From IMG/VR virus record IMGVR_UViG_3300027849_000027, positions 1-35,994 of that record: 35,994 bases of DNA; one strand, written 5' to 3'. Both the position numbers and the translations under genes were made by a program. Shown piece after piece: positions 10,839 to 34,156 of the stretch. The notes below the pieces were generated by a model. The model was not told the origin of the DNA and did no database searches. It saw only the letters and a program-made list of their open reading frames with translations. Position 1 is the first letter of the stretch; the number at the start of each line of letters is the position of its first letter. This stretch comes from a virus.

Positions 10839-12173
10839 ATGGCTGAAAAAGAATATATTGTAAGTCTTAAACGTGGTGTAGATTATGCAGCGTTTGATGA
10901 TGAAATGCAAGCAGGCATTGGACGTGGACTTGTCACAGACAGACTTGTTGATGTAGCTAACTCTAGACCGTTATCACAACGTAACACACACTACATGTTA
11001 TCACCGGAAGAAGTAACAGAGTTACTTGCTGATAACCGTGTATTAGATATTGAAGAACCACCTGAAAATAGAGATGACATCACAATTGAACCAGCAGCTT
11101 CGCGACCTGGGACATGGCGCAAAACATCTAGTATTGTCAGTGCTGATTTAAACTGGGGCATGCTTAGGTCTACTTCAAAAGAAGACGTTTGGGGCAGTGG
11201 AGTAACGAGTTCCACAAGACCGTTTAATTACAATCTAACTGGCAAAGGGGTTGACGTAGTAATATCAGATACTGGTGTTGACACTGGACATATTGAATTT
11301 ACAGACGCTGACGGTGCTAGTCGTATAAAGAATATAGATTGGTATACTGCTAGCGGTGTATCAGGCACACAAAATGCAAACCATAACAGAGATCATCACG
11401 GACACGGAACGCATTGTGCAGGCACAGCAGCTGGTCGTACAATGGGTTGGGCAAAAGATGCACATATATATTCTCTTAAAGTTAGAGGACTAGAAGGTAC
11501 AGGTGATGATAACACAGGAATTGTTACTTCAGACTGTTTTGATGTAATTAAAGGCTGGCATAATAACAAACCAATAGACCCTGCTACAGGATTTAAACGT
11601 CCTACTATTGTAAATATGAGTTGGGGGTATTCTATCAATACAACCGTAACGCCCACTGCCGGCACTTTTAGAGGAACATCATGGACATACGGTAATGCAG
11701 GATTTGCAACAGATGCAAATCTAAGAGACAATGCAGGAATACTAGAAAAGATTTTTAGTGGCGGCAACCGCAAAATAAATCTTAGAATATCTAGTGTAGA
11801 TACAGATATACAAGAAATGTTAGATGCAGGAATACACGTTTGTATTGCTGCAGGAAATGCCTATTACTATATTGCAAATGAGGGCGATCAGGATTGGGAT
11901 AATTCAGTAACAGTTTCCGGAGTTACTAGAAATTATCATAGAGGGTCAAGCCCATATGACACAGATGCTTTTATAGTAGGAAGTCTTGATGTTAGTTATA
12001 CTGGCGGCAAGGAACAAAAATCAGAATTTAGTCAATGCGGACCTGGAATTGGTATTTACGCAGCTGGAAATAATATTATAAGTGCAAGCTCAGATGATTA
12101 TGGCGGGACAAACGAAATTGTACAAGGAGGCACAACTAGAGTTACTCATCCGCTAAATGCTAGTAACACTTAA
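10839..12173 (+). CDS. Subtilisin-like protease, N-terminal part (propeptide, Asp and His)
   Basis: A 444-residue S8-family (subtilase) fragment. Residues ~5-72 resemble an I9-type propeptide/inhibitor (start EYIVSLKRG, end VLDIEEPP). The catalytic Asp is Asp144 (VVISDTGVDTGH), the catalytic His is His189 (HGHGTHCAG), and the oxyanion-hole Asn is Asn340 (CIAAGN). The Ser motif is missing: the frame stops with TAA at 12171-12173 just before the position where GTSMASP is expected, and that motif appears at once in the next frame. There is no Sec signal peptide, so the enzyme probably travels as a virion component or acts inside the infected cell. It may mature structural proteins or cut host-surface proteins; the target is unknown. 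Alone, this fragment would not be an active protease. Confidence 0.85.
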   Translation: MAEKEYIVSLKRGVDYAAFDDEMQAGIGRGLVTDRLVDVANSRPLSQRNTHYMLSPEEVTELLADNRVLDIEEPPENRDDITIEPAASRPGTWRKTSSIVSADLNWGMLRSTSKEDVWGSGVTSSTRPFNYNLTGKGVDVVISDTGVDTGHIEFTDADGASRIKNIDWYTASGVSGTQNANHNRDHHGHGTHCAGTAAGRTMGWAKDAHIYSLKVRGLEGTGDDNTGIVTSDCFDVIKGWHNNKPIDPATGFKRPTIVNMSWGYSINTTVTPTAGTFRGTSWTYGNAGFATDANLRDNAGILEKIFSGGNRKINLRISSVDTDIQEMLDAGIHVCIAAGNAYYYIANEGDQDWDNSVTVSGVTRNYHRGSSPYDTDAFIVGSLDVSYTGGKEQKSEFSQCGPGIGIYAAGNNIISASSDDYGGTNEIVQGGTTRVTHPLNASNT

Positions 12174-13291
12174 TGAAAATATCAGGTACTAGTATGGCTA
12201 GCCCAAATTTGTGTGGTATGCTTGCAACAGTATTAGAAGTTAATCCTAATATGAGTGTTCCAGGATTAAGAGAATGGACTATAGCTAACGCAGCTAAAGA
12301 TAAGATGTATCAAGGCACAGTTGGCGATTGGAATGACTATGATAGTATAAACTGTGGCGGCAATACTAATTACGAGTCTAAGGCAATTGTAGCAAGTACA
12401 GAATATAATCCTCTTGCTAAAGAGATGGATGTGCGTGGATTAAAATTACTAGCTTGGGGAGCAAAAGGCGGAGCAACAGCAGTATCAGATTCGTTTATAC
12501 AAAAAGTTGCAAGACATGTTGAAATGATGTTAGACCCTACAGGAACAGATGTTGATGCCACTGCACAAGCAGCAGCTATAGCAGGAATGAAAGCAAGTAA
12601 CACAGTACAATTTATTGGACATACTAGTGGTAGTTATAGTCCTAGCATACTAACTGACGATGCTAATGATTACTATCCAGGATTAGATATTATTAGAAAC
12701 ATGTATGGTAACGTAGACTTTGTTTGGGAAAGTGATGACAGTTTAGGATCTTATAGTGCAGATGGCCAAATCATGGAAGTTATGGAACACGTATTGCATA
12801 CACTTACTGTTTATGCATTGCCAGCAGCATATCCTACACAATTTGCACAAGACAATCAAACAAGCGACCTTTACAATGCTTGTGCCCAGGCTATTTCAAA
12901 CAACGTGTTTGACGCAAGTGGTTATGGTGCATGGCCAGGATCAGATCCTGATATACGTGCATTAATAATGCGTGAATATTATTACTTGCTAACAATAAGC
13001 ATGTGGGACTACTTTTCTTTTGTTGATGGAGGATCTTTATCACCTGAGTGGAATGATAATAGTAGAACACCATCAGGCGTACAATCAAATAATCCGTTAG
13101 GTTACGCACTATATAATGATTATGGTAAAAAAGTACTTACTAAACCTATCGAAACAGTACTAGACTTAATGCATGCAACAAGTGGTTCATCTGGATGGGT
13201 TCCAAACGCTAATACAAATTTAATTATGCACACACCTTTTGCAAGTGCCGAATCATTTACTACTACGTCAAACGTAGGATTATCTACATAA
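12173..13291 (+). CDS. Subtilisin-like protease, C-terminal part (catalytic Ser) plus unknown domain
   Basis: A 372-residue product whose ATG overlaps the previous stop (TAATG). It starts MKISGTSMASPN, so the subtilase catalytic Ser is residue 7. The homology to subtilases runs straight across the junction, and a -1 shift at 12170 would fuse both parts with one extra Leu. After ~residue 100 comes a domain I do not recognise (begins near FIGHTSGSYSP) with an E-x2-EHVLH motif (nt 12776-12799; His206 and His209) that could bind metal. Two readings are possible: a programmed frameshift or stop-start pair making one protease, or a natural mutation or sequencing error that splits the gene. The in-frame stop at 12164 excludes an earlier start of this frame. 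Confidence 0.8.
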   Translation: MKISGTSMASPNLCGMLATVLEVNPNMSVPGLREWTIANAAKDKMYQGTVGDWNDYDSINCGGNTNYESKAIVASTEYNPLAKEMDVRGLKLLAWGAKGGATAVSDSFIQKVARHVEMMLDPTGTDVDATAQAAAIAGMKASNTVQFIGHTSGSYSPSILTDDANDYYPGLDIIRNMYGNVDFVWESDDSLGSYSADGQIMEVMEHVLHTLTVYALPAAYPTQFAQDNQTSDLYNACAQAISNNVFDASGYGAWPGSDPDIRALIMREYYYLLTISMWDYFSFVDGGSLSPEWNDNSRTPSGVQSNNPLGYALYNDYGKKVLTKPIETVLDLMHATSGSSGWVPNANTNLIMHTPFASAESFTTTSNVGLST

Positions 13292-13313: not shown

Positions 13314-14111
13314 ATGGCAGTTCAATTAATTAACATAGGCAACACCGCAAACGACGGCACTGGTGATGATTTACGAGAAGCATTTGTAAAAGTAAATAAC
13401 AACTTTAACGAATTAGACCTGCGTGACGATGAACAAACTACGGTAACTAACTTAGGGTCTACTGGCGAAGGCGTATTCAAAGAAAAAATTAATTACGACT
13501 TAAAGTTTAAAAAACTAGTAGGAGGCGCAGGCCTTACACTTACAACCACAGACAATAATATTACAATAGCTAATAATAAAGTTTATGATCTTACACAAAC
13601 TGCCGTAACTGGTGATAGTTATGTTACAAAGCAATATGACTTTGCCGACAGCAGATTACTTTACAACAATGTTTATGGCACTTTAGCAGACTTACCAAGT
13701 GCAAGCACATATCATGGATTATTTGTACATGTACACACTACCGGTGGTGCATATTATAGTCATGGCGGTGTATGGGTAGAACTTGCAAATAAAACAGATG
13801 TAGCAGAATTATCAGAAGATACAACTCCTGCACTAGGTGGCAACTTAGATGCCGGCGGATTCAATATAACAAACGCTGGTACTATTATTTCAACAGGCAT
13901 TACTGGAAATTTAACAGGTAATGTTACTGGTTTAATTAATGGTATTGATCCAGCGGCGAGTTATGCTACATATAGTAACATGGACATGGGTGGCGTAATT
14001 AATACAGTAAATAATATTGTAGACTTTAGAATGCTTAATGATGATGTAGATATGGGCACTTGTGTATCAGCAAACGAAATAGAAGTCGACTTTGGCGCAA
14101 TTGCCGTATAA
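13314..14111 (+). CDS. Tail fibre / baseplate-associated structural protein
   Basis: A 265-residue protein with the same adaptor-type N-terminus as the gene at 7411 (INIGNTANDGTGDDLREAF followed by VKVNNNFNEL). This motif is common at the start of T4-like marine phage fibre and baseplate proteins. Later segments show fibre-type motifs (TTPALGGNLDAGGFNITNAG near residues 164-183; GNLTGNVTGL near 196-205). A central portion with two His (HGLFVHVHTTGGAYYSHGG) could be a small beta domain. A late promoter and AAGGAAA precede it. It probably attaches at the baseplate through its N-terminus. Structural assignment is good; specific role unknown. Confidence 0.75.
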   Translation: MAVQLINIGNTANDGTGDDLREAFVKVNNNFNELDLRDDEQTTVTNLGSTGEGVFKEKINYDLKFKKLVGGAGLTLTTTDNNITIANNKVYDLTQTAVTGDSYVTKQYDFADSRLLYNNVYGTLADLPSASTYHGLFVHVHTTGGAYYSHGGVWVELANKTDVAELSEDTTPALGGNLDAGGFNITNAGTIISTGITGNLTGNVTGLINGIDPAASYATYSNMDMGGVINTVNNIVDFRMLNDDVDMGTCVSANEIEVDFGAIAV

Positions 14112-14113
14112 TC

Positions 14114-14128
14114 GAATTCCGATAAATA
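14114..14128 (+). repeat. 15-bp direct repeat GAATTCCGATAAATA, copy 2
   Basis: Exact copy of 7868-7882. It again ends in the late-promoter core, this time in front of the 1803-aa hydrolase-bearing gene. Confidence 0.85.
14121..14128 (+). promoter_or_regulatory. Putative T4-type late promoter GATAAATA
   Basis: Core GATAAATA lies in the 34-bp gap before the ATG at 14146. AAGGAA at 14135-14140 follows at once, so the expected transcription start (near 14134) is just upstream of the ribosome binding site. Same geometry as at 7875 and 19562. Confidence 0.75.
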
Positions 14129-14145: not shown

Positions 14146-17100
14146 ATGGCTAAATTACAAACTAATACTACGATCAGCATTACCAAAACTTGGTTCCAGC
14201 AGGCCAATGGGTTTACATATCCAATTTCTGTTAGGGTGCCAAATCTTGCTTCATTGTCTGGAAAAAGAATTCCAGTTACAATATTACTACACGGATCGGG
14301 TAGTAACGGGCAAGCAACATTAAGTAATTGGGATTCTATATTACCCGACCATATATTAATTGCTCCTACGGGATATCTTAATCAATGGAATGTTGCACAC
14401 GAAGAAACAAAGGCGCCTGATGTATCGTTTTTGCAAGACCTCTGTACACAGTTAAAAACATACGAAAACGTAGACGGCAATAAGATTAGAATTTTAGGCT
14501 TTAGTAACGGAGCCGGTTTAGCTAACAGAGCTTATATATCATTAGACGAACCAGGTGTTGACCAAATTGTAGCAATTGCTTCTACTTTTGGATCTATGAT
14601 GTATAGAAGTGGTAATTTTTATATTCCAGTAAATGAACAATCAACTGGCGTTAATATATCAAACTTTCCTACTATCAAAATTCCATTCAAGCCAAGAAAA
14701 TTTATAAACTTTCACGGCTTATCTGATACACAATTTCCTTATGTAGGAGGTGTACATAATTTTGGATACACTTTTATATCAGCACAGGCTAGTGCATTTG
14801 CAGTAGCAAAAGGGCAAGGCTATACTGGCTCGCAGATTGCAGATAACTTAGGTGTTGCAGACATTGGTGGAACATTTAGGTACACATACGATACACCATT
14901 TGGTGATGTATTACAATACAAATATCCTGAAGGGCACGAAGTAACTGTTTCAATTAAAACGCTAGTAAGTAACAACTTTGCATTTGTGCATCAAAATCAA
15001 CCAGATTCACCCAGTGCTATATCAACAGTAGCTTGGAACGCTAGTCAACTAAATGTATCTGATCCTGAAGGAACATATCCAAGTTCAACTACATTTGCGT
15101 TTGACGGACAAGTAATAACAGCAACTAGTAACGGTGATCCTTATCCTGCACTAGCAGGGCATGGAATGACTAACACTGGAGTTAGGTTATTTGGACATAA
15201 CCCAAATGTTATTCAATCACAAGCTTATAGTTATAGAATTAAAAACAGAGCAGGTGAAAACACTTCTAATCCTCAAGCAACTGAATTAGGTGCCCAAGGC
15301 ATATTTGCTAATGGTGTAGTAGCCTTTAATCCAAGTGCTGGATTTGGAATATTGCCTGGGTCAACTGTTTATCCTCCTATAGGATTTAATTACAATGCAG
15401 TTCATTTACAATCTGCATATGGTGTAGATGGTGCTGGAGGACATCCGCAAAGCAACGGGTCTTATCATTATCACGATGGATCTTTTTTATATAGTGGATG
15501 GAATACAAATAAAATGTATGCAGCCAATGCGTACTTTAATCAAACAGATTTTAATGGTGACAAGTATAGACACATTGATGGCCACAGTAAAATCGTAGGG
15601 TATTGCTTTGATGGCTATCCTATTTACGGCCCATATGGATATGCTACAGGAACAGATAATAATTCAGCAGTAATACAAATGTCCTCGAGTTATATTGTAC
15701 TCCCTAATGATGATCATCGTCCGGGCGATTTTAAGTTCGATAGAACTATAGAGGTTGATGGTGTAGGCACTGTGACTCTTACTGCAGGTAGTTTTTTACA
15801 AGATTTTGAATACCGAGAAACTAAAGGTACATTGGATAGATACAATGGAAGATATGTTAAAACTCCAGACTTTCCAAATGGAACTTATGCTTACTTTTTA
15901 ACATTTGAAGGAACAACGGCTGATATAGGAATAGCTTCAGTTAAATCTAGTTATCCTTATATATTTGGAACAGAAACAAAACAAAATAGAAAACTTGTTC
16001 CTGCAACAGTAGATCAAGTAACATTAGATGCTGCATTAGTACAGAGTGCATTATGGAATGTAGCAACAGGAACACGACTTACTAACTTAATTGAAAGAAG
16101 TGTTGTTGATATTAGTTTGCCAATGGCAAATGGTGTAACTCCTACGCTAAAATTAATTAGTGGAAGTTTGCCCACAGGTACTAGAATAGAAGGTACTAGT
16201 ATTGTTGGAACAGTTTACGAAGTTGCATATGATACAGTATTTACAGCAGTGCTTCGAGCTAGTTATAATGGACTATGGGAAGACAGGACTATAGAATTTG
16301 CAGTGTCAGGACCTGATGATCCTGTTTGGGGAACTTCAGCAGGAGCATTGCCAGTTGGACCAAATAGTGTATTCTATGTGCTTGACAGTGCTTTAATAAA
16401 TTTTCAACTTGCAGCAACTGACACAGACATTGCCGCTGGTGATGAATTAACTTACTTTATTGCAGACGGTGACGGAATGCTGCCACCAGGTATTACTATG
16501 TCCGAAGGTGGGTTATTAAGTGGTATTACAGATCCGTTGTTATCCTTAGACAAGCGATTTGAAAGTGGCGGATATGATACAGAAAACTATGCAACACTTC
16601 CTTTAGATTACGGAGTTACTCCATCAAATGGGTTTTCTAGCTTCTTTTACGATAGAGAAACATACGACTATAATGAGCCTACAGTAAATCCAAGAAAGCT
16701 TAATAGATACTATCCATTTGCAGTAACAGTAACAGATGGTGAATCATTTGTTAAAAGAGAATTTCAAATTTATGTAGTTGGCGATGATTTCTTAAAAGCT
16801 GATAACACTTTAATGAGTGCTAGTACTGGAATATTTAAATCTTCAGCTACTAACGTGAGGAAACCTGTTTGGATTACTCCTGGAGCGTTAGGATACAGAC
16901 GAGCAAATAACTACCAAACTATTTACTTAGATATTGTAGATAATTCTACACTTGAAGGCAAGCTATATTATACTTTAGAAAGCACTAACGATGACGGTAC
17001 AAAGAGTATTGCTCCTCCAGGGCTAAAGTTAGATGGCTCATCCGGTGAATTAGTTGGAAACATTCCTTACCAAGCAGCAATAACACAGGATTACAAATTT

Positions 17101-19557
17101 ACTGTCCGTGCTACACGCATGACATTTGATTTAGAAAGTGTTAGTATTGCTGGAACATATTACGAAGATACAATGTTAGGTAAAACTAGCTTTAAGATTG
17201 GCAAGGTTAATCTAACAGGTTCTCTTGATGGAGTTAATGATCTATTTGAATTAATTAACCGTGAAGTTCTTTTAGGTAACAGGACCTACAAAATTACAAG
17301 CGTAGATGATAGAAATGCTCTTTACGATGTAATTTTTGTTGATCAAACTATTGCTCCTTCACTTAATCTTATTCCTAGTAGAACTGCAATAGTAGGTCAA
17401 GACAACATGTTTGTTACTAGACTTACAGAAGTACAAAAAGAAAAATATAATAAAAGATTTTTAAGATTTACTGAGTCAGAGAAATATCAAATACAGAGTA
17501 TTACTCCGTATATTGAATATGAAATTACTCAAGTATCTCCTGGCAATGACGAAATGTATCCTGTAGGCATTCCAATGGATATAACTCTTAATGCTAACTA
17601 TTATGTAGGTGACATGATTGAAAATACTACAGCTACAGGTGGTAATGGATATATCTACAAATGTACAACAGCACACACAGTAACTAGTGCAGGATCAGAT
17701 ATTGGCGGAGTAACACAATTAGTATTTACTGCGTCTAACTGGACACAAATAGCAGAAACAATATCTGGTATGACACTAGCTGATAGAGTTATTGCTACTA
17801 AGCAAGTATTACAAAACAAGTACGGTGGTGTTGCTACAGTACAAGTATTAAACGAGCAAGCTACACGCTGGAGAATACATATTCCTAGCACAGCAACTAG
17901 CAGAATAGTTTCTAACATAAGAGCTCATTTTGCAAATTCTGGAGATAGCACAGCAATGTCCGTTACCCTTCTTAGAGACAACGAAGATAGGATTGGATTT
18001 GATGTAAACTTAACTAGACAACTTACGCAGGGTAATAACTATGGTATTGGGCTGTTTAGAGGCGACGGATTCTCAGAAGATATTATTGTTGCTAATACTA
18101 AAGACATTCCGAGTACTGTTAAGACGTTTACAATAAAAGTTATAGGCGAAATTGATAGTGCTATAAAATGGGTTACTCCAGCAAGCTTAGGTACTATTCC
18201 TGCGAACTATATTAGTACGTTACTAATTCAAGCTCAAACTACTGTTCCTGATACTAGAATGATGTATTCTATTAAATTAGGTAAACTTCCATATGGTATG
18301 ACTTTAGACATTAACGGAGAAATTCTGGGAAATGCACAACAGTTTGGTACGCCTGCGGACAAGGGCCTTACTACGTTTGAAACAAAGTCAGTTATGTGGG
18401 ACGGCGTTCTTCCTGGTGATACTACGTTTGATAGAAAGTATAAGTTTACTGTTGAAGCAAAAGATAGATTTGGATATACAGCTATTGAGCAGGAATTTGA
18501 TCTTACTGTAAGTGATGTCGATACTAAAAAGTATACAGACATATACATGAGACCAATGTTGCCTAGTGCTGAAAGAACATTATATGCTAACTTTATCTCA
18601 GATAGAAATATATTTGAACCTGATAAAATTTATAGAGCAAACGATCCAACATTTGGATTACAAAGAAACTTAGACATGCTAGTATATGCAGGCATTGAAG
18701 CTAAGAAGATAGAAAATTTTGTTGCAGCGTCTGCTAAGAATCATAAGCGTAAGAAGTACATATTAGGTGACTTTAAAACAGCAAAGGCAACTACAGGAAT
18801 AGGTGCAACTGCTAAAGACGTATACGAAGTAGTATATATAGAAGTTATTGATCCTGCCAATGCTAAACTTGGTAGAACAAAAACTAACTTTGAAATAACT
18901 ACAAAAAGTGAAATTACTGTTGATAGTATAGCATATAGTCCTAAAGATGATGAGCAACGTATTAATTCAGGATATGACGCTTTACCTGTGTACACTAGAG
19001 GTGTAACTAAGTTTATATTTGAAGAACTAGAAGATACACTAATTGTACAGACTAGAGATAGTAGCGATAGTAGCGAAAATCAATTTGTTGATGCAGATAA
19101 TAACGACTTTACTATAGAACTAAAAGACGGAACTGATGTTACAGTTACACTTCAGTTAACAGATGCAGAGTCACAACGTTTTAGACCAGTAACTAATACC
19201 ATTAAAACTGATAGCAATGCAGTCAGAGTTAGTCAAGGACTAGACAATATTAGATACATATCTAGTATAGACAACATGAGAAGTAATATTAAAGCTATTG
19301 GTGGTAATGAAAGAACATATTTGCCGCTTTGGATGCGTACTCCGCAAGCAGGGTTTCAAGAATTAGATTATGTAACAGCTATACCAATTTGTTATTGTAA
19401 GCCCGGAACAAGTGCAGATATACTTAGAAACATTGTTAATAATGGGTTTGATACAAAAACAATTACCTTTGATATTGATAGGTATATTGTAAAATCAACC
19501 GAAAACACCACGGATGAGAAATATATCTTGTTCGCAAATTACCAGTATAACGTCTAA
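14146..19557 (+). CDS. Large tail-associated protein: alpha/beta-hydrolase, YHYH domain and Ig-like repeats
   Basis: An 1803-residue protein. Residues ~25-270 form an alpha/beta-hydrolase of the PHB-depolymerase/feruloyl-esterase type. It shows an oxyanion motif (LLHGSGSNG), nucleophile Ser120 in GFSNGAG, probable Asp194 in HGLSDTQFPY and His264 in PEGHEV, a complete triad. Residues ~300-500 hold a YHYH domain (SYHYHDG at 439-445, then VGYCFDGYPIYGPYGY). Four segments of He_PIG/Ig type follow near residues 675, 779, 956 and 1381 (for example LPPGITMSEGGLLSGI). The C-terminal half has further beta-rich sequence that I cannot assign. With late promoter, ribosome binding site and fibre neighbours, it is likely a virion tail protein that de-esterifies or cleaves a host-surface or polyester substrate. 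The substrate is unknown, and no signal peptide is present. Confidence 0.85.
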   Translation: MAKLQTNTTISITKTWFQQANGFTYPISVRVPNLASLSGKRIPVTILLHGSGSNGQATLSNWDSILPDHILIAPTGYLNQWNVAHEETKAPDVSFLQDLCTQLKTYENVDGNKIRILGFSNGAGLANRAYISLDEPGVDQIVAIASTFGSMMYRSGNFYIPVNEQSTGVNISNFPTIKIPFKPRKFINFHGLSDTQFPYVGGVHNFGYTFISAQASAFAVAKGQGYTGSQIADNLGVADIGGTFRYTYDTPFGDVLQYKYPEGHEVTVSIKTLVSNNFAFVHQNQPDSPSAISTVAWNASQLNVSDPEGTYPSSTTFAFDGQVITATSNGDPYPALAGHGMTNTGVRLFGHNPNVIQSQAYSYRIKNRAGENTSNPQATELGAQGIFANGVVAFNPSAGFGILPGSTVYPPIGFNYNAVHLQSAYGVDGAGGHPQSNGSYHYHDGSFLYSGWNTNKMYAANAYFNQTDFNGDKYRHIDGHSKIVGYCFDGYPIYGPYGYATGTDNNSAVIQMSSSYIVLPNDDHRPGDFKFDRTIEVDGVGTVTLTAGSFLQDFEYRETKGTLDRYNGRYVKTPDFPNGTYAYFLTFEGTTADIGIASVKSSYPYIFGTETKQNRKLVPATVDQVTLDAALVQSALWNVATGTRLTNLIERSVVDISLPMANGVTPTLKLISGSLPTGTRIEGTSIVGTVYEVAYDTVFTAVLRASYNGLWEDRTIEFAVSGPDDPVWGTSAGALPVGPNSVFYVLDSALINFQLAATDTDIAAGDELTYFIADGDGMLPPGITMSEGGLLSGITDPLLSLDKRFESGGYDTENYATLPLDYGVTPSNGFSSFFYDRETYDYNEPTVNPRKLNRYYPFAVTVTDGESFVKREFQIYVVGDDFLKADNTLMSASTGIFKSSATNVRKPVWITPGALGYRRANNYQTIYLDIVDNSTLEGKLYYTLESTNDDGTKSIAPPGLKLDGSSGELVGNIPYQAAITQDYKFTVRATRMTFDLESVSIAGTYYEDTMLGKTSFKIGKVNLTGSLDGVNDLFELINREVLLGNRTYKITSVDDRNALYDVIFVDQTIAPSLNLIPSRTAIVGQDNMFVTRLTEVQKEKYNKRFLRFTESEKYQIQSITPYIEYEITQVSPGNDEMYPVGIPMDITLNANYYVGDMIENTTATGGNGYIYKCTTAHTVTSAGSDIGGVTQLVFTASNWTQIAETISGMTLADRVIATKQVLQNKYGGVATVQVLNEQATRWRIHIPSTATSRIVSNIRAHFANSGDSTAMSVTLLRDNEDRIGFDVNLTRQLTQGNNYGIGLFRGDGFSEDIIVANTKDIPSTVKTFTIKVIGEIDSAIKWVTPASLGTIPANYISTLLIQAQTTVPDTRMMYSIKLGKLPYGMTLDINGEILGNAQQFGTPADKGLTTFETKSVMWDGVLPGDTTFDRKYKFTVEAKDRFGYTAIEQEFDLTVSDVDTKKYTDIYMRPMLPSAERTLYANFISDRNIFEPDKIYRANDPTFGLQRNLDMLVYAGIEAKKIENFVAASAKNHKRKKYILGDFKTAKATTGIGATAKDVYEVVYIEVIDPANAKLGRTKTNFEITTKSEITVDSIAYSPKDDEQRINSGYDALPVYTRGVTKFIFEELEDTLIVQTRDSSDSSENQFVDADNNDFTIELKDGTDVTVTLQLTDAESQRFRPVTNTIKTDSNAVRVSQGLDNIRYISSIDNMRSNIKAIGGNERTYLPLWMRTPQAGFQELDYVTAIPICYCKPGTSADILRNIVNNGFDTKTITFDIDRYIVKSTENTTDEKYILFANYQYNV

Positions 19558-31077: not shown

Positions 31078-31908
31078 ATGACAGACTATTATAGTAGACT
31101 AGGTGTAAGCAGAAATGCTACACAAGAAGACCTCAAAAAGGCATATAAAAAAGCTAGTATGCAACACCATCCTGACAGGGGTGGTGATGCCGAGAAATTC
31201 AAAAGAATTAACGAAGCATATAGTACACTAAAAGATCCTGCTAAAAAACAACAGTACGATAATCCTCAACAGCAACAACGTAATCCATTTGGGCAAGGGC
31301 AACAAGAGCATAACCCATTTGCAGGAACGCCATTTGAACATCATTTCCATCATGGGTTTGGCCAACAACGACCAAGGCGTCCTTTAAATCAAGACATACG
31401 TATAATGGCTAACGTTGATCTTAGAGATATAGTTACAGGTAAAAATCTATTTGTACAACTGCCGCTTGGCTCGGGCAGAACTGAATCAATGAATGTAGAT
31501 ATTCCTGCAGGTGCAAAACAAGGTGACACAATACAATACGAAGGGCTTGGAGACGATACACATAGACAGTTTCCGAGAGGAAACTTACACGTTGTTATAC
31601 AAGTTGCACCGGTTATTGGTTGGGAAAGGAATGGTAACGATTTAATTACCAAAAAAACCGTAAATCTATTTGACTTATTGCTAGGAGATGTTATAATAGT
31701 AACAACACTAGACGATAGAAACATTAAATTAACTATTCCAAAAGGCACAAATTCAGGTCAACGATTCAGTATACCAGGATACGGGATCCCCGATATTAAT
31801 ACAGCACAACGTGGTAACATCCATGTTATTGTTGAAGCGGAAACTCCGGAAATAACAGACGAAAACCTGTTAAACAAGATTAAGCAAATTAGAGAAGAGA
31901 TTGAATAA
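31078..31908 (+). CDS. DnaJ/CbpA-type Hsp40 co-chaperone
   Basis: A 276-residue class-II Hsp40. The J domain (1-62) has the HPD motif at His31-Pro32-Asp33 (MQHHPDRGG) needed to stimulate DnaK. A Gln/Gly/Phe-rich linker (~65-98; QQQQRNPFGQGQQEHNPF) follows, and then two beta-rich C-terminal substrate-binding domains (~100-276; GNLHVVIQVAPVIGWERNGN, TIPKGTNSGQRFSIPGYG). There is no CxxCxGxG zinc finger, so it is CbpA/DnaJB-like. It would redirect host DnaK. The stop lies one base before the start of the ClpA-type gene, so the pair may be translated together as a remodelling/degradation unit. The start is supported by similarity, not by a ribosome binding site. Confidence 0.9.
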   Translation: MTDYYSRLGVSRNATQEDLKKAYKKASMQHHPDRGGDAEKFKRINEAYSTLKDPAKKQQYDNPQQQQRNPFGQGQQEHNPFAGTPFEHHFHHGFGQQRPRRPLNQDIRIMANVDLRDIVTGKNLFVQLPLGSGRTESMNVDIPAGAKQGDTIQYEGLGDDTHRQFPRGNLHVVIQVAPVIGWERNGNDLITKKTVNLFDLLLGDVIIVTTLDDRNIKLTIPKGTNSGQRFSIPGYGIPDINTAQRGNIHVIVEAETPEITDENLLNKIKQIREEIE

Positions 31909-31909
31909 T

Positions 31910-34156
31910 ATGGTAGAACCAAGTAAAGAGTTACAATTAGTTTTTGATAAAGCAATTAATGATGCTAAAAAGCTGCAGCACGAGTATGTTACACTTGAGC
32001 ATTTGCTACACGCAATCTTTTGTGAAGAAAAGTTCTGTAATATTATGACTATGTTTGGTGCTGATGTAGATTACATTAAGTCTAATCTAGAACATCATTT
32101 AAAAACTAACATGGCTGATATTATTACTGACAAAGTTAAGATTAAGCCAAAAAAGACACATACTGTAGAACGTGTATTAAATCGTGCATTTACTCAAGTA
32201 CTATTTGCAGGACGCAATACAATTGACTTAACTGATGTTGTGTTAAGTATGCTAAATGAAAGAAAATCTATTTCAGTATACTATTTAGAGAAGGGCGGAG
32301 TTGAGAAGGCGAAGTTTGCAGAATTTCTTAACAGTGAACTTGAAGAAGATTTACTAAGTGACGATGAAATAAGTAGTGATGCTAAACGTGCATTACGTGC
32401 ATTTACTACTAATCTAAACGATGAAGTAAAGCGTGATAAGATTGATCCTATTATCGGACGTAGTTCCGAACTTGAAACACTAGCACTAGCATTAGGCCGT
32501 AGACAAAAGAATAATGTACTAATGGTAGGCGATCCAGGTGTTGGTAAAACAGCTATTGCTGAAGGACTTGCATACAATATTGAAAATGGCAAGGTTCCTA
32601 GCTTCTTGTCAGAGTATAAAGTATATAACTTAGACATTGGTGCAATGCTTGCCGGCAGTAAGTATCGCGGAGACTTTGAAGAACGCTTTAAACTTGTTAT
32701 GCAAGCACTTACCAAACAAGGTAAAACTATTATGTTCATTGATGAAGCACACATGATGAATGGTGCCGGTGCTGGTGGTGGTAGTAATTCAAATGACCTT
32801 GCTAATATGCTAAAGCCTGCACTTACTAAAGGTGACTTGAAGGTTGTTGCGTCAACTACATGGGAAGAGTACCGCAAGTACTTTGAATCGGACCGTGCGT
32901 TGATGCGTAGGTTCCAACGTATTACTATTGGTGAGCCTAGCAAAGCAACTACAAGAGATATTTTAATTGGAATTAAGAAATACTATGAAGAATTCCATAA
33001 CACTACTATTACAGAAGAAGCTATTGATTCAGCTATTAAGTTAAGTGTAAAATATCAGCCTGATAAGAAGCTTCCAGATAAAGCAATTGATCTTATTGAT
33101 ATTGCATGCTCAAGATTTAAAGTAAATGATGACGAATCAGAAGAGAAAATTGTTGGTGAATCACAAATAGAGTTTGAACTTGCTAAGTTAGTTGATATGC
33201 CTACAGAGCGTATTGCTGAAAAAGAAACTGAAAGCTTAATGAACTTAGAAAAGAACCTTAAAGGCGAAGTGTACGGACAAGACGAAGCTATTGAATCAAT
33301 TGTTGATAAGGTACTAGTTAACCAAGCTGGCCTAAAAGCTGATGACAAGCCAATTGGATCGTTTGTGTTTATGGGTCCAACAGGAACAGGTAAAACTGAG
33401 ACAGCAAAGCAGTTAGCAAAATGTTTAGGCGTAAACTTAGTACGGTTTGATATGAGTGAATACCAAGAAAAGCATTCAGTTGCTAAACTGATTGGTTCAC
33501 CTCCAGGTTATGTTGGACACGAAGATAATGCAGGACAGTTAATTACTAAACTGCAAGAATCACCTAACTGTGTACTACTACTTGACGAAATTGAAAAGGC
33601 GCATCCAGATGTTTCACAAATATTGTTGCAACTTATGGACAATGGTAGAGTTACAGGTTCTAATGGTAAGGTAGCTGACGCACGTAATGCCACACTTATA
33701 CTTACTACTAACTTAGGTGCTCGAGACGCAGAGAAAAACACTATTGGCTTTAATGAAGACTTTGAAAATGTTCAAGATGATACTGAACTAAAACGTTTCT
33801 TTAGTCCAGAGTTTAGAAATAGACTAGATGGTGTGATTACATTTGCCAAACTAGGTAAAGAAGTAATGATGAAGATTGTTGGCAAGTTCCTAGTTGAGCT
33901 TAAAGACATGGTTAAAGATAAAAACATAGCAATTACTATTACTGATGATACACTTGACTACTTAGTAGACAAAGGATTTGACCCTGCTATGGGTGCAAGG
34001 CCTTTACAACGTGTTATTGACAAGGATATCAAACGTAAACTAGCAAGAGAAATGTTATTCGGTGATCTTAAAGACGGTGGTTCATTAACTATCGATTATA
34101 GAGATGGTGAGATTCAATTGGACTGTGTTAAAGATGAAATCACTACAACTGTTTGA
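31910..34156 (+). CDS. ClpA-type AAA+ unfoldase with predicted ClpP-docking loop
   Basis: A 748-residue Clp ATPase with the ClpA layout. It has a Clp N domain (~1-145) and a first AAA+ module (Walker A GDPGVGKT 207-214; TIMFIDEAHMM at 273-283). No long ClpB-type coiled-coil M domain is present. The second module carries Walker A GPTGTGKT (489-496), LIGSPPGYVGHED and LLLDEIEKAH. A C-terminal D2 small domain (GFDPAMGARPLQRVID) follows. Residues Ile612-Gly613-Phe614 (nt 33743-33751) align with the ClpP-binding loop of ClpA (IGL). This implies it can dock on host ClpP and feed it substrates, rather than only disaggregate. ATG 31910 is chosen over an upstream TTG at 31901. It follows dnaJ by one base. 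Confidence 0.93.
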   Translation: MVEPSKELQLVFDKAINDAKKLQHEYVTLEHLLHAIFCEEKFCNIMTMFGADVDYIKSNLEHHLKTNMADIITDKVKIKPKKTHTVERVLNRAFTQVLFAGRNTIDLTDVVLSMLNERKSISVYYLEKGGVEKAKFAEFLNSELEEDLLSDDEISSDAKRALRAFTTNLNDEVKRDKIDPIIGRSSELETLALALGRRQKNNVLMVGDPGVGKTAIAEGLAYNIENGKVPSFLSEYKVYNLDIGAMLAGSKYRGDFEERFKLVMQALTKQGKTIMFIDEAHMMNGAGAGGGSNSNDLANMLKPALTKGDLKVVASTTWEEYRKYFESDRALMRRFQRITIGEPSKATTRDILIGIKKYYEEFHNTTITEEAIDSAIKLSVKYQPDKKLPDKAIDLIDIACSRFKVNDDESEEKIVGESQIEFELAKLVDMPTERIAEKETESLMNLEKNLKGEVYGQDEAIESIVDKVLVNQAGLKADDKPIGSFVFMGPTGTGKTETAKQLAKCLGVNLVRFDMSEYQEKHSVAKLIGSPPGYVGHEDNAGQLITKLQESPNCVLLLDEIEKAHPDVSQILLQLMDNGRVTGSNGKVADARNATLILTTNLGARDAEKNTIGFNEDFENVQDDTELKRFFSPEFRNRLDGVITFAKLGKEVMMKIVGKFLVELKDMVKDKNIAITITDDTLDYLVDKGFDPAMGARPLQRVIDKDIKRKLAREMLFGDLKDGGSLTIDYRDGEIQLDCVKDEITTTV

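Follow-up and report, generated by a model that had tools for sequence, protein, structure and literature searches.

Esterases and deacetylases are established constituents of the tailspikes of other phages, among them the tailspike deacetylases (Salmonella Vi phages, c341), the esterase tailspike of coliphage G7C and Pectobacterium phage PP99 (PMC5380687; PMC6989608). YHYH, a domain without known function, has been predicted to be a metal-dependent hydrolase with a metal site (PMC7824862) and is counted among the domains linked to receptor binding (PMC7029224). Here we describe a protein of 1803 residues, encoded on the plus strand at positions 14146-19557 of a 35,994-nucleotide viral sequence (hereafter the window), in which a hydrolase domain is followed by a YHYH domain and an Ig-like tail. 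We give a probability of roughly 0.6 to the reading that this is a late-made virion protein of the tail fibre or baseplate, consisting of a YHYH-Ig backbone with an N-terminal carbohydrate-esterase (deacylase) module. Such a protein would share with the tailspike enzymes the principle of virion-borne deacylation of a surface glycan (PMC5380687; PMC6989608), although those enzymes belong to another family and have another protein architecture, and none of their phages is among the 65 annotated records that match the window hydrolase. With the YHYH proteins of jumbo phages (PMC7824862) it has in common the YHYH domain, the tail context and the conserved His/Asp set; the word "esterase" is absent from the main text of that paper, in which we found no mention of a hydrolase fusion.

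The open reading frame starts with ATG and runs as a single uninterrupted frame. Residues 7-281 (14164-14988, plus strand) are modeled as an alpha/beta hydrolase of the CE1/type-1 PHB-depolymerase superfamily, apparently an active one. No Pfam model matches this domain above its cut-off. Its best match in the PDB is the CE1 enzyme AoAXEB (9j07; phmmer E = 1.4e-5, profile E = 9.6e-9), which Foldseek also finds with the hydrolase model (E = 1.8e-13), and acetyl xylan and feruloyl esterases are the top structural matches, with carboxylesterases and PHB depolymerases also present. The PHB-depolymerase/feruloyl-esterase-like fold proposed in the initial annotation is thus borne out. The Ser and Asp of AoAXEB align with those of the window hydrolase; unlike it, AoAXEB is a fungal secreted enzyme, is 18% identical and has its His beyond the sequence alignment.

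The AlphaFold model has a pLDDT mostly >90 over residues 1-280. In it S120 (14503-14505), within GFSNG, sits in a nucleophile elbow between strand 109-119 and helix 121-132, D194 (14725-14727), within HGLSDTQFPY, follows strand 185-191, and H264 (14935-14937), within YPEGH, follows strand 255-260 and precedes helix 268-277. The order and placement of the three residues in the model are those expected of an alpha/beta hydrolase. The initial annotation had named exactly these residues as a complete esterase triad and held that a structure keeping them apart would refute it. As judged from predicted secondary structure, the Ser lies in a strand-turn-helix elbow, the Asp and His lie after the required strands and the closest folds are esterases. 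H49 (14290-14292), in LLHG-GxxG, is nearly invariant and marks the putative oxyanion region. GFSNG is the sole GxSxG motif in the first 700 residues, and a chance occurrence of the motif is excluded by fold, profile and conservation.

Could the fold serve only for binding, the esterase scaffold having been put to lectin-like use, without catalysis, in a receptor-binding protein? One jumbo-phage relative (L018, 8839-12342) has Gly in place of the nucleophile (GFGLG), which suggests that the domain can persist without catalysis. This protein is the sole triad exception among 44 homologues at 28-100% identity: Asp and His are present in 44/44 and Ser in 43/44, and the HGxG region is kept in nearly all of them, phage and cellular alike. 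Moreover, the dN/dS of the hydrolase is ~0.13 against L016 and L017 of the window clade (dS is saturated against L013, and the near-identical L007 gives a noisier 0.40), which indicates purifying selection on the domain within this clade. With both the residues and the selection arguing for an enzyme, a purely binding role seems unlikely.

What might the enzyme act upon? Its cellular homologues come mainly from marine Bacteroidota, where they are secreted, and also from Verrucomicrobiota; most have signal-peptide-like or lipoprotein N-termini, often with a type-IX sorting tail. The N-terminus of the window protein, MAKLQTNTTISITKTW, is without a hydrophobic stretch, in agreement with its earlier description as signal-less. 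One Verrucomicrobiota homologue joins the hydrolase to a sulfatase and one Flavobacteriales homologue joins it to BD-FAE, a feruloyl/acetyl-xylan esterase domain. Because of these fusions and the CE1 fold match, we favor polysaccharide esters as the target. Clues to the substrate came from these fusions alone: the genome neighborhoods of the cellular homologues are mostly housekeeping, and most of the copies examined lie outside an obvious polysaccharide-utilization cluster. We also note a bacterial ORF (L062, 8184-10778) that contains a TOTE-type archaeo-eukaryotic primase domain and a reverse transcriptase.

Two other classes of substrate were considered. A lipase, or an esterase of lipids or protein acyl groups, could act on outer-membrane or envelope lipids during entry or lysis, in keeping with weak Pfam matches of 22/44 members to Abhydrolase_2 (phospholipase/carboxylesterases) and with the carboxylesterases among the Foldseek matches. 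However, the highest-ranking structures are esterases of acetyl xylan and feruloyl groups, the secreted relatives carry the sulfatase and BD-FAE fusions, and the fusion partner in the phage is an adhesin-type YHYH domain rather than a lysis gene; we regard this reading as quite improbable. The storage-polyester (PHB) option raised in the initial annotation is very improbable, since storage granules are intracellular and inaccessible to a tail protein during adsorption, and the fold matches and cellular fusion partners point instead to polysaccharide esters. A remote match to NCBIfam NF050058 (type-1 PHA depolymerase) is found in all 44 members (best E = 4.4e-14) and, in the window, spans residues 31-131, around the nucleophile (E = 9.6e-8), but scores 31.8 bits against a cut-off of 150. 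TIGR01840 likewise gives 15.4 bits against 107.85. A plain PHB depolymerase was rejected on these two cut-offs, and the likeness to the type-1 scl-PHA depolymerase catalytic domain is a remote one, far under the curated thresholds.

The presence of a YHYH domain was readily confirmed: PF14240 matches residues 365-588 (15238-15909) with E = 8.8e-34 and 117.6 bits against a gathering cut-off of 25, within a larger region (residues 313-623; 15082-16014) that matches phrog_2576 (E = 6.9e-150). H441, H476, H480 and D489, the putative metal site, are invariant in the YHYH alignment, and the YHYH motif itself varies at its second His. AlphaFold modeled the domain with a pLDDT of ~30, both alone and within residues 1-635, from input sequences that were few and too similar, and a profile search of the PDB with YHYH gave no match. 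In other proteins YHYH is fused to Mtd_N and fn3 adhesin modules. The C-terminal 1170 residues (16045-19554), presumably a shaft or attachment part, contain at least three He_PIG/Ig-like motifs (residues 779, 956 and 1381), against 0.003 expected in shuffled sequences. He_PIG scores 20.1 bits in the window, under the Pfam cut-off of 24, and 46.8 bits, above it, in the orthologue L145; the Ig-like repeats noted earlier are thus probable.

Two features of the locus support the earlier view of a late-expressed tail protein. First, GATAAATA, a T4-type late-promoter-like element close to the T4 late promoter TATAAATA, lies at 14121-14128 (plus strand), where it precedes the start codon by 25 bp, and five relatives (L006, L013, L014, L017 and L043) have retained it ahead of their copy of the gene. 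The pattern [GT]ATAAATA occurs at six sites in the window, all on the plus strand (7875, 14121, 19562, 26871, 29964 and 34824), and 5/6 precede an ORF by 19-39 bp (binomial P = 1.6e-8 with a hand-chosen gene list). GATAAATA and TATAAATA motifs also recur at roughly matching places in the sister contig C57. Second, the gene closes a tail-fibre/baseplate cluster, with tail-fibre, gp9/gp10-like and subtilase genes upstream, and DNA-replication genes start downstream of it. The immediate upstream neighbor (13314-14111, plus strand) has an N-terminus like that of T4 gp9/gp10, a baseplate/tail-fibre connector (phrog_677, E = 8.7e-17). The promoter-like element, the baseplate neighbors and the PHROG virion categories suggest that the protein is part of the virion. 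A one-base difference from L006, a 99.8%-identical contig with an intact copy (826 aa), breaks the subtilase (S8) gene at 10839-13291 (plus strand) into the ORFs 10839-12173 and 12173-13291; either a genuine frameshift or an error of sequencing or assembly may be responsible.

The 36 kb are collinear with 80-120 kb of a 335-kb contig (L043; PBPT01000016.1) at ~71-76% nucleotide identity. This contig, which is binned in a Neomarinimicrobiota MAG, carries a terminase gene and a gp23-type capsid gene, whose nearest relatives are the capsid genes of Serratia BF, Erwinia SNUABM and similar jumbo phages (RaK2-like). From this we identify the window as part of the genome of a marine jumbo myovirus. 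A second contig of the same bin (C77) gives the same scores in its matches to capsid and terminase. A possible clue to the host comes from a sister jumbo phage (L076), which encodes several tRNAs and, at 2056-2400, a tmRNA (ARAGORN tmRNA*, permuted) with the tag ANDNYAPEMAMAA. The window also encodes, at 31901-34156, a phage ClpA-like ATPase that is 86% identical in a sister jumbo phage.

How would such a protein work? Expression together with the tail genes would be driven by the late promoter, a step that the upstream element supports. The protein would then join the baseplate or fibres, probably through its long C-terminal part or the gp9/10-like neighbor, and YHYH and the Ig-like part would bind, and perhaps cut, a glycan on the host surface. 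From the fold, the conservation of the triad and the cellular relatives, we infer that S120-H264-D194, with the H49/GxG oxyanion region, would deacylate this glycan, removing acetyl or another small ester by way of an acyl-enzyme intermediate. Deacylation would loosen the glycan layer or make adsorption reversible.

Comparison with relatives indicates that the hydrolase is a detachable module on a YHYH-Ig protein, a feature that the initial annotation had missed. Four phage proteins (L145, L167, L170 and L110) are orthologous to residues ~294-1803 at 51-53% identity and are without the hydrolase, as are more distant orthologues at 39-49% identity. In these proteins the match starts at or near their own N-terminus, and several of the genes are downstream of a subtilase gene. 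The Gly-bearing L018 protein joins hydrolase and Ig-like parts without YHYH, which is encoded by a separate gene ~1 kb upstream, and the locus has two subtilase genes. In other phages the hydrolase is fused to a subtilase (L009 and L037-L042), and all IMG/VR hydrolases found in genes long enough to judge are fused to, or close by, YHYH or S8. One such fusion, in cyanophage S-MbCM7 (L009, 8282-11206), has after the subtilase and hydrolase a C-terminal part that is cupredoxin-like by eye (YYICQAHSLM). Among the best 80 of 196 YHYH loci, the hydrolase is present in 24 (at the front in 8 and at the back in 16) and absent in 56. Of 50,697 annotated phage records, 461 match the whole protein, mostly via YHYH, and 65 match the hydrolase, all of them cyanophages.

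Cyanophages S-ShM2 (SShM2_094; ADO97705.1), S-SSM4 (CYXG_00060) and ACG-2014d (gp072) encode both domains in one protein, as in the window, with ~37-43% identity in the hydrolase. Their genes adjoin gp9/gp8 baseplate genes, and the proteins are labeled hypothetical or "gp7." In contrast to the window protein, they have YHYH first and the hydrolase last, are ~575-590 aa in length and have no Ig-like tail. The YHYH gene of cyanophages either stands alone (285-298 aa) or carries the hydrolase C-terminally. In an unrooted tree the window-clade hydrolases form one group, which falls with the cellular ones and apart from those of cyanophages (100/98 support). When a single origin of the fusion was tested, the data excluded a clade uniting the YHYH-fused hydrolases of jumbo phages and cyanophages (AU p = 0.006) but are compatible with one that unites every phage hydrolase (AU p = 0.315). 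Since the domain orders are opposite, hydrolase-less orthologues exist on both sides and the tree separates the two groups, the sequences favor at least two YHYH-hydrolase joinings. Partner exchange within phages may nevertheless account for the pattern, as may separate capture from bacteria.

It had been proposed that the hydrolase and YHYH could share a substrate. That the two have been fused repeatedly, and in either order, strengthens this idea; on the other hand, most YHYH proteins are without the hydrolase, so the YHYH domain does not need it. An extension of the proposal is a two-enzyme glycan processor, in which the esterase would deacylate the glycan and a metal-dependent YHYH would then cut the unmasked backbone, the pair having been assembled at least twice, with the hydrolase now at one end and now at the other, and the subtilase being a third, exchangeable partner. 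We offer this only tentatively. For the esterase module itself, the reversed pairing in ocean cyanophages suggests that these phages may use it to remove acyl groups from sugars of the host surface.

In the open-licence literature we found no paper describing the YHYH-hydrolase pairing and no relevant paper on a cyanophage feruloyl esterase. The pairing was already present, undescribed, in public cyanophage genomes; new here are the inverted domain order in a jumbo phage, the series of proteins with and without the module and the exchange with subtilase. These comparisons put a name to a likely catalytic activity of abundant marine phage proteins that are listed as hypothetical. They also provide natural pairs with and without the hydrolase, on the orthologous tail protein of sister jumbo phages and on YHYH in cyanophages, through which the role of the YHYH tail protein becomes testable in laboratory Synechococcus.
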